Assembly (NCBI GenBank): GCA_009781635.1
Contig: WQXU01000014.1
Coordinates: 1 to 64,000, forward strand
From: Treponema sp.
GTDB lineage: Bacteria > Spirochaetota > Spirochaetia > Treponematales > Breznakiellaceae
DNA: 64,000 bases
Direction: 5' to 3'
Below the pieces are notes generated by a model, which saw only the letters and a list, made by a program, of their open reading frames with translations, made no database searches and was not told where the DNA came from. Shown piece by piece: positions 1 through 822 of this stretch (positions within the stretch are counted from its first letter, which is position 1; each line of letters begins with the position of its first letter). Made by a program: the position numbers and the translations under genes.

Positions 1-202
1 GGGTTCCAGTCGCTGACATCCTGTCAGCTCCTTGCACCCCCGCCTGCGCGTTGCAAGCGCATCCATGCGCTTACATGCTCACAATTTAAGGCTTACGCCT
101 TACTGGTCTTTACAGCAACGCTTTGTTTCGAATCCCCCGGCGTTAATGTAATCATTGCATTTATCCCTAATCAGGGGATTAATCGGTATCATATACCGTT
201 TA
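1..202. repeat. tRNA-linked 200-bp repeat, copy A
   Basis: First of three near-identical units (the others start near 338 and 557). The left end is cut by the window edge. It holds several dyads: GCAAGCGCAT then CC then ATGCGCTTAC, TAAGGC-TTAC-GCCTTA, ATCCC-N7-GGGAT and CGGTAT-CAT-ATACCG. On the minus strand it lies directly after the 3' end of tRNA-Ser(GCT). No coding capacity is credible. Function unknown. Confidence 0.85.
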
Positions 203-290
203 CGGAGCAGGGGGGATTCGAACCCCCGGTACCCTTTCGGGGTACAACTCCTTAGCAGGGAGCCCGATTCGGCCTCTCTCGCACCGCTCC
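203..290 (-). tRNA. tRNA-Ser (anticodon GCT)
   Basis: Minus-strand cloverleaf of 88 nt with acceptor stem GGAGCGG/CTGCTCC-type pairing, a long variable arm (class II tRNA) and T-arm GGTTCGAATCC. The anticodon loop CTGCTAA sits on a GCTCC/GGAGT stem and gives anticodon GCT, which reads AGC/AGU serine codons. The discriminator base is G, as expected for serine tRNA. No CCA is encoded. Its last 18 nt are duplicated at 320-337 and 539-556. Confidence 0.95.
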
Positions 291-319
291 AAGGATGTTT
301 TCACAGTTTTTATAATTTA

Positions 320-538
320 CGGAGCAGGGGGGATTCGGGGTTCCAGTCGCTGACTCCTGTCAGCTCCTTGCACCCCCGCCTGCGCGTTGCAAGCGCATCC
401 ATGCGCTTGCATGCTCACAATTTTTAAGGCTTACGCCTTACTGTCTTTACAGCAACGCTTCGTTTCGAATCCCCAGCGTTAATGTAATTGCTGCCTTTAT
501 CCCTAATCAGGGGATTAATCGGTATCATATACCGTTTG
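320..538. repeat. 18-bp tRNA-Ser 3'-end copy plus repeat copy B
   Basis: Positions 320-337 read CGGAGCAGGGGGGATTCG, identical to the 3' end of both tRNA-Ser genes (minus strand), but no tRNA body follows. The 200-bp repeat then starts with GGGTTCCAGTCGCTGAC. In this copy the central dyad is perfect: GCAAGCGCAT-CC-ATGCGCTTGC. The unit is about 219 bp including the 18-mer. It looks like an integration-scar or duplication unit seeded on the tRNA end. Confidence 0.85.
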
Positions 539-737
539 CGGAGCAGGGGGGATTCGGGGTTCCAGTCGCTGACTCCTGTCAGCTCCTTGCACCCCCGCCT
601 GCGCGTTGCAAGCGCATCCATGCGCTTACATGCTCACAATTTAAGGCTTACGCCTTACAGTCTTTACAGCAACGCTTCGTTTCGAATCCCCAGCGTTAAT
701 GTAATTAATATATTTATCCCTAAAACAAGGGATTATT
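539..737. repeat. 18-bp tRNA-Ser 3'-end copy plus repeat copy C
   Basis: Same layout as copy B: an 18-bp tRNA-Ser 3'-end copy at 539-556, then the repeat, ending at the 3' end of tRNA-Ser(TGA). The unit is about 199 bp. It is shorter than B and diverges in its last 40 bp, where the CGGTAT/ATACCG hairpin is missing. The central dyad carries one mismatch, as in copy A. Confidence 0.85.
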
Positions 738-822
738 CGGAGCAGGGGGGATTCGAACCCCCGGTACCTTTCGGCACAACGGTTTTCAAGACCGCCTCCT
801 TAAACCGCTCGGACACCGCTCC
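738..822 (-). tRNA. tRNA-Ser (anticodon TGA)
   Basis: Minus-strand class II tRNA of 85 nt. Anticodon stem GCGGT/ACCGT and loop CTTGAAA give anticodon TGA (reads UCA and related serine codons). The long variable arm, the T-arm GGTTCGAATCC and the G discriminator match tRNA-Ser. Its 3'-terminal 18 nt are the same as those of tRNA-Ser(GCT). CCA is not encoded. Confidence 0.95.

Follow-up and report, generated by a model that had tools for sequence, protein, structure and literature searches.

In this study, we analysed a window of 64,000 nucleotides from a Treponema genome, base 1 of which is also the end of its contig (C14 of genome G000). The window opens with an array of short repeats that lie behind two tRNA-Ser genes on the minus strand (Table 1). 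The window contains four exact copies of the 18-mer CGGAGCAGGGGGGATTCG, at 203-220, 320-337, 539-556 and 738-755, and no others, where 0.01 matches would be expected by chance. The outer two copies belong to tRNA genes, the first being the 3′ end of tRNA-Ser(GCT) and the last that of tRNA-Ser(TGA), while the two in between stand without a tRNA body, as had been described in an earlier note on this DNA. It had also been noted that each 18-mer is followed by a repeat of about 200 bp, which is borne out by identities to 338-556 of 94 % for the unit at 1-220 and 93 % for the unit at 557-740. The minus-strand order given there, namely tRNA(TGA), unit, 18-mer, unit, 18-mer, tRNA(GCT), unit, is likewise right, with a spacer of 29 nt preceding tRNA-Ser(GCT).

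Table 1. Features of the tRNA-Ser array at the start of the window
Feature	Position	Strand	Basis
tRNA-Ser(TGA)	738-822	minus	ARAGORN 737-823, Rfam tRNA 738-822; nt 56-73 = window 738-755
Spacer tRNA-Ser(TGA)/unit A, 46 nt, below usual length	692-737	minus	sequence
Unit A left arm L, GGGGATTCGA	682-691	minus	complementary to tRNA nt 56-64; P1 partner of R
Unit A structured body: P2 with P3 and P4; P6 with P5	557-681	minus	R1 match, fold evidence
Unit A right end R18, copy of tRNA-Ser nt 56-73	539-556	minus	exact 18/18
Spacer units A/B, 64 nt	475-538	minus	sequence
Unit B left arm L	465-474	minus	inverted copy of tRNA piece
Unit B structured body	338-464	minus	R1 match, folding energy
Unit B right end R18	320-337	minus	exact 18-mer
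Spacer unit B/tRNA-Ser(GCT), 29 nt	291-319	minus	sequence
tRNA-Ser(GCT)	203-290	minus	ARAGORN 202-291, Rfam tRNA
Spacer tRNA-Ser(GCT)/unit C, 65 nt	138-202	minus	sequence
Unit C left arm L	128-137	minus	inverted copy of tRNA piece
Unit C body, cut by contig end just short of R18	1-127	minus	R1 match

The covariance model R1 matches unit A at 539-694 (150 bits, E 1.6e-36), unit B at 320-477 (146 bits, E 1.6e-35) and unit C at 1-140 (116 bits), the last of these matches being truncated at its 3′ end. Since the contig ends at window base 1, unit C is truncated and the array may run on. The folding energy of window 320-481 on the minus strand, which covers unit B, is -74.3 kcal/mol (z -5.2). The second end of the contig (G000:C14:77868-77960) also lies at or near a unit, and many further contigs of related MAGs terminate in or near a unit of the same tRNA-flank family. 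As contig ends coincide with units in this way, the repeats probably limit assembly. Beyond the array, a perfect ungapped 32-bp palindrome (ATATAATATGGTATCA/TGATACCATATTATAT, 1071-1102), possibly a candidate operator, lies just upstream of an ORF of 429 aa (1109-2398), the product of which looks like an ATP-binding protein, judging from the P-loop-like motif GMRQCGKST.

Anatomy and fold of the units

When read on the tRNA-sense strand, a unit follows a copy of tRNA nt 56-73 (R) and consists of a spacer of about 62 nt, a 10-nt left arm (L), a body of about 125 nt and R again. L corresponds to tRNA nt 56-65 in reverse complement, with agreement at 9 or 10 of the 10 positions in the three inverted copies present in the window (Table 1). 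The structured element is about 135 nt long, and the whole unit measures only about 215 bp.

An alignment of 32 units from the window's genus yielded with RNAalifold a fold of 40 pairs, 25 of which show compensatory changes. The fold is a three-way junction made up of P1, formed by L and R, P2 around the hairpins P3 and P4, and P6 around the hairpin P5; five pairs of the closing stem P1 show double changes. Within the genus 96.9 % of the alignment cells are paired, and none of 500 shuffles reached the observed value for any measure, while only 34-47 % of cells pair when the structure is slid along the alignment as a control. When 41 units of other genera were aligned with MAFFT, without recourse to the structure of the model, 20 of the 22 predicted pairs were compensated; these fall in P1, P4, P5, P6 and a short hairpin in the place of P3, and as the units had been picked by the covariance model this second alignment is independent in alignment though not in selection. 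On the tRNA-sense strand, G-U cells outnumber A-C cells by 54 to 13, or by 27 to 13 once the consensus wobble pair is left out. This identifies the tRNA-sense strand as the one that folds, and RNA and single-stranded DNA fit this bias alike.

The loops of P4 and P5 mostly read A(G/C)GAN, and an internal loop UGGA/CYGGAA is conserved in the spirochaete units. One subtype (L046, L048 and L030) has pairs of the GGCCU/AGGC type in P6 and often CGA for GGA in the P5 loop, and in G021 both P6 subtypes occur together behind a single tRNA. In thermodynamic folding of a tRNA together with its unit, the 5′ half of the tRNA pairs with the far R18 and not with its own 3′ end.

Distribution

The earlier note had suggested that the repeat be searched for in the whole genome and in relatives, and this search revealed a family that spans the genus and the phylum. 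We searched with R1 over the phylum and, outside it, at the E. coli tyrT locus only. The genomes represent one per species and many are fragmented MAGs. The window's genome holds 16 matches, mostly at other tRNAs; within the genus of the window, 37 of 40 genomes are positive, as are 44 of the 296 genomes sampled across the phylum, in 21 of 138 genera. The named relatives are uncultured Treponema MAGs, whose isolate codes we read as pointing to termite-gut hosts. A search of the open-access literature found no report of such repeats in spirochaetes. In Rfam scans at permissive thresholds, in which units from the window and from other genera were included, no known family was found besides tRNAs. 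Weak matches to TD-2 and sroD were judged to be due to chance; those to TD-2, which are below threshold (L013 2045-2129, L031 4438-4528 and 4255-4338), lie on the antisense strand of hairpin-rich spacers around units.

The tie to the host tRNA or tmRNA

Of 237 R1 matches, 212 have a tRNA gene on the same strand within 700 bp upstream, compared with three that have an opposite-strand tRNA upstream and two that have one downstream. The copies at other tRNA 3′ ends that the earlier note had proposed to look for are plentiful, with host tRNAs representing more than 30 anticodons across species. The tmRNA gene is also a host, in four genomes; most of the tmRNA units, at L106, L120, L154 and L156, end in the tmRNA 3′ end GACTCCCGCCACCTCCA or a near-copy of it.

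R and L follow the host tRNA, whichever tRNA this is. R18 agrees with the adjacent tRNA at 17 or 18 of its 18 positions in 170 of 201 cases, with a mean of 16.9 as against 10.5 for other tRNAs, and the mean for L is 9.18 of 10 positions as against 7.05. Two comparisons show the same on single units. The bodies of a tRNA-Asn unit (G337) and a tRNA-Gln unit (G247) are 92 % identical, whereas their left arms are GCAGGTTTTG and ACAGGATTCG, respectively, each matching its own tRNA at 10 of 10 positions. In G008, the bodies behind tRNA-Ser(TGA) and tRNA-Ser(GCT) share 96 % identity, and their L arms differ at the sole T-stem position that distinguishes the two tRNAs.

Spacing and duplicated flanks

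Among 106 cases from the genus, 74 have L separated from tRNA nt 73 by 55-66 nt, with a mode of about 62 nt, despite the fact that the spacer sequences are unrelated between loci; in the window the distance is 46, 64 and 65 nt. It is looser in other genera, where 18 of 51 cases fall within 55-66 nt. The spacer resembles an intrinsic terminator at several loci, which means that transcription of the unit may be low.

Both single units and tandem arrays are found, the tandem units of one locus being nearly identical, and the segment made up of nt 56-73 and the spacer can be present as two copies that flank a unit. At the tRNA-Ala locus of G011, the sequence that follows R repeats the spacer behind the tRNA at 61 of 61 nt and stops at the start of L. 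By one criterion, such a flank repeat is clear in 32 of 95 single units, with a right edge that varies. The flank repeat is consistent with the duplication of some 80 bp of target, from the T-loop to the insertion point, although some of the repeats could be remnants of tandem copies that were later deleted.

Occupied and empty loci and the clustering of the bodies

The locus CoaE-SPOR-tRNA-Ser(TGA)-Ser(GCT)-Arg-Ser(CGA)-Ser(GGA) is common to several species. Behind tRNA-Ser(TGA), one or two units are found in the window, L200, L201, L203 and L215, and no unit is found in the stretches of L197, L198 and L235 that were examined. Empty sites, which the earlier note had called for in sister strains, thus exist between species, as a polymorphism of empty and occupied states at an orthologous tRNA-Ser locus. 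Between tRNA-Ser(TGA) and tRNA-Ser(GCT) of L198 (9498-9623), the sequence GATTCGAATCCCCC reads as L joined straight to R and is perhaps the scar of a deleted unit.

In a tree of the bodies, which was calculated with one copy per genome and tRNA (87 units), the genome labels require 60 changes compared with 72.5 +/- 1.8 after shuffling, and the tRNA labels 58 changes compared with 65.1 +/- 2.0. The nearest neighbour lies within the same genome for 23 of the 87 units, where 3.2 would be expected. It follows from this clustering that bodies move among the tRNA loci within one genome, whether through insertion or through conversion, besides being inherited with the locus. No insertion event within a species was caught among these genomes, which include one per species.

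Dispersed copies together with the empty/occupied polymorphism indicate that the repeats are elements and not a local accident. The combination that the earlier note had set against elements, namely a repeat present only here, with a local gradient of divergence and no empty/occupied polymorphism, is not what we found. The original observation is correct but understated, having missed the contig end at base 1, the inverted tRNA piece in each unit, the 16 matches in the genome and the spread through genus and phylum.

Likeness to RtT and to other small repeats

The RtT repeats of E. coli tyrT have long been known, yet to our knowledge their origin and function are unsettled. These repeats (RF00391) form 178-bp units in tandem behind a tRNA, a layout that the spirochaete units share, and each of them closes with the 19-nt tRNA-Tyr 3′ end including CCA, just as a copy of the tRNA 3′ end closes each spirochaete unit. 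The E. coli fold is closed by pairing between the internal arm GGGGAAGGAT and the stretch ATCCTTCCCC of the tRNA-end copy, and the same stem is found in the Rfam RtT alignment. Counted from nt 73 of the tRNA, or from nt 73 of the copy before it, this arm begins at a distance of 59-62 nt, which compares with the mode of about 62 nt in the spirochaete genus. The two differ in that the RtT pairing involves about nt 59-68 and not nt 56-65, in that R contains an encoded CCA in E. coli, unlike the spirochaete R, and in the fold and sequence of the body. The RtT model matched none of the spirochaete units tested and R1 gave no match at E. coli tyrT. As the models miss each other's members, the units are not filed as RtT although they are built like RtT, and our verdict is that they are RtT-like in layout and represent a new, phylum-wide form.

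RtT has been described as an RNA liberated from the tRNA transcript, and in the Pasteurellaceae, namely in Actinobacillus, two RtT RNAs near tRNA-Asn and tRNA-Lys genes gave Northern signals (PMC4986893). A tandem GA motif has also been reported for RtT (PMC7657543). Among 5426 complete E. coli genomes, 4695 contain RtT-like matches, at 1 to 14 places each; with this variation between genomes, the RtT-like repeats of E. coli, as at tyrT of K-12 (L096), are a possible system in which to follow changes in an array.

Other classes of small elements share single features with the units. REP/BIME elements and MITEs are likewise short, non-coding, palindromic, repeated and without an enzyme of their own; the spirochaete units, however, are confined to the 3′ flanks of tRNA and tmRNA genes and have host-matched ends and a conserved fold of several helices. 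Y1 transposase genes do not track them, which sets them apart from REP/BIME elements: a Y1 transposase domain was found in 16 of 39 element-bearing and in 4 of 20 element-free genomes. Eukaryotic tRNA-derived SINEs are also small, non-autonomous, made of tRNA-derived sequence and flanked by duplications, but the spirochaete units copy only the local tRNA 3′ end, from the target itself. Reverse transcriptases do not track the units in the same 39 and 20 genomes either (12/39 compared with 7/20). A Y1 transposase or reverse transcriptase that has been lost or is foreign to the genome may nevertheless be the mobilising enzyme.

How the units may have spread

We think it probable that the units are RtT-like non-autonomous satellites of tRNA genes, which have spread between tRNAs and have ends matched to the host. 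Such an element would move from tRNA gene to tRNA gene and insert about 62 bp past the tRNA 3′ end. The insertion would duplicate about 80 bp back to the T-loop and, because the tRNA 3′ end is thereby duplicated, the host tRNA would be left intact. Unequal recombination between direct copies of R and spacer would then expand, shrink or delete units. A read-through transcript from the tRNA gene, if any is made, would carry the folded unit, in which L would occupy R and so mask the additional 3′ end, which could then not compete with that of the tRNA itself; such competition does appear in the energy folding described above, where it weighs against the proposal. The fit of L to a new tRNA would either be copied at insertion or be selected afterwards via the stem. 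Going further, and as a tentative proposal that we ourselves regard as somewhat doubtful, the element might rewrite its own left end for each target. It would in this way gain the reverse complement of the T-arm together with a ruler-set duplication of about 80 bp, and would be able to fold and persist whichever tRNA it lies next to; in that case, the repeats at E. coli tyrT might be seen as a surviving relative or as a parallel case.

An alternative to satellites that spread, which we consider a serious one even if it falls somewhat short of an even chance, is that the units are first of all functional, namely a small structured RNA that is set free from the transcripts of tRNA genes and hardly moves, if at all, and in which L and R would co-evolve through selection on the stem and conversion with the tRNA. 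The strong conservation of base pairs across the phylum, the G-U bias on the sense strand, some clustering of bodies by tRNA type and the liberated RtT RNA with the Actinobacillus signals would all be consistent with this idea. However, the presence of units at orthologous tRNAs is patchy and many copies are truncated, and copies at dozens of tRNAs that cluster within genomes look like spread and not like a fixed gene.

The likeness of bodies within a genome could also result from gene conversion between existing units. On this account the units would long have been present at every one of these tRNAs, with homogenisation restricted to the bodies; this would cluster bodies by genome just as movement does and would also keep tandem copies alike. 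It leaves unexplained how units came to lie behind tRNAs of more than 30 anticodons and tmRNA, why flanks are duplicated and why orthologous sites are empty, and we regard it as rather unlikely.

The earlier note had raised the possibility of tiny satellite elements or of scars left by a tyrosine recombinase at an attachment site. The elements of this proposal have held up, while the attachment scars have not, and miniature satellites of a recombinase with the tRNA 3′ end as attachment core now appear improbable. The stretch from the T-loop to nt 73 is a usual position of an attachment core. It is this stretch that makes up the shared 18 nt, and direct repeats flank the units; at integrative elements and satellites that use tRNA ends, too, the 3′ end is present twice, starting at the T-loop, and the tRNA remains complete. 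The spirochaete unit differs from these in its size of about 215 bp, in the absence of an integrase gene within it and in an end that follows the target, so that the core is not constant and changes with each host tRNA. The inverted arm L and the fixed spacing of about 62 nt are not features of att sites, and a circle carrying the 3′ end of one tRNA would need to swap its acceptor strand in order to enter another tRNA. Integrase genes are not generally found near units in the seven genomes inspected, and no copy was found in phage and plasmid records. The exception among these loci, a tyrosine recombinase-like gene upstream of a tRNA-Asp with a degenerate unit (L238, on G000:C49), was judged to be an isolated case. 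A scan of IMG/VR for the exact pattern returned ten stretches and no convincing unit; the sole weak model match from these overlaps viral tRNAs on the opposite strand and was judged to be due to chance.

Less probable still is that the units serve as CsrA-sequestering RNAs that would bind the protein via GGA in both hairpin loops. GGA is present in the P4 loop of 32/32 genus units and in the P5 loop of most, and ACAGGAUGU of the hairpin loop resembles the CsrA consensus; the subtype with CGA in its P5 loop, however, speaks against such a role. Finally, unequal duplication, which the earlier note had given as the plain alternative, holds inside arrays, where the tandem units of one locus are nearly identical, but as the only process acting on a tRNA 3′ flank it is highly improbable since one and the same body lies at many unrelated tRNAs, with matching ends, in many genera.

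Implications

Our findings carry a warning for work on such genomes, as contigs can break at loci of this kind and copies of tRNA 3′ ends can mislead annotation. An RtT-like layout, spacing and tRNA-matched stem, found in a phylum remote from that of E. coli and beside dozens of kinds of tRNA, provide many natural experiments, in the form of empty sites, fresh copies and retargeted copies, through which the origin of RtT-like repeats becomes testable. The units point to an unknown way of inserting sequence beside tRNA genes without harm.
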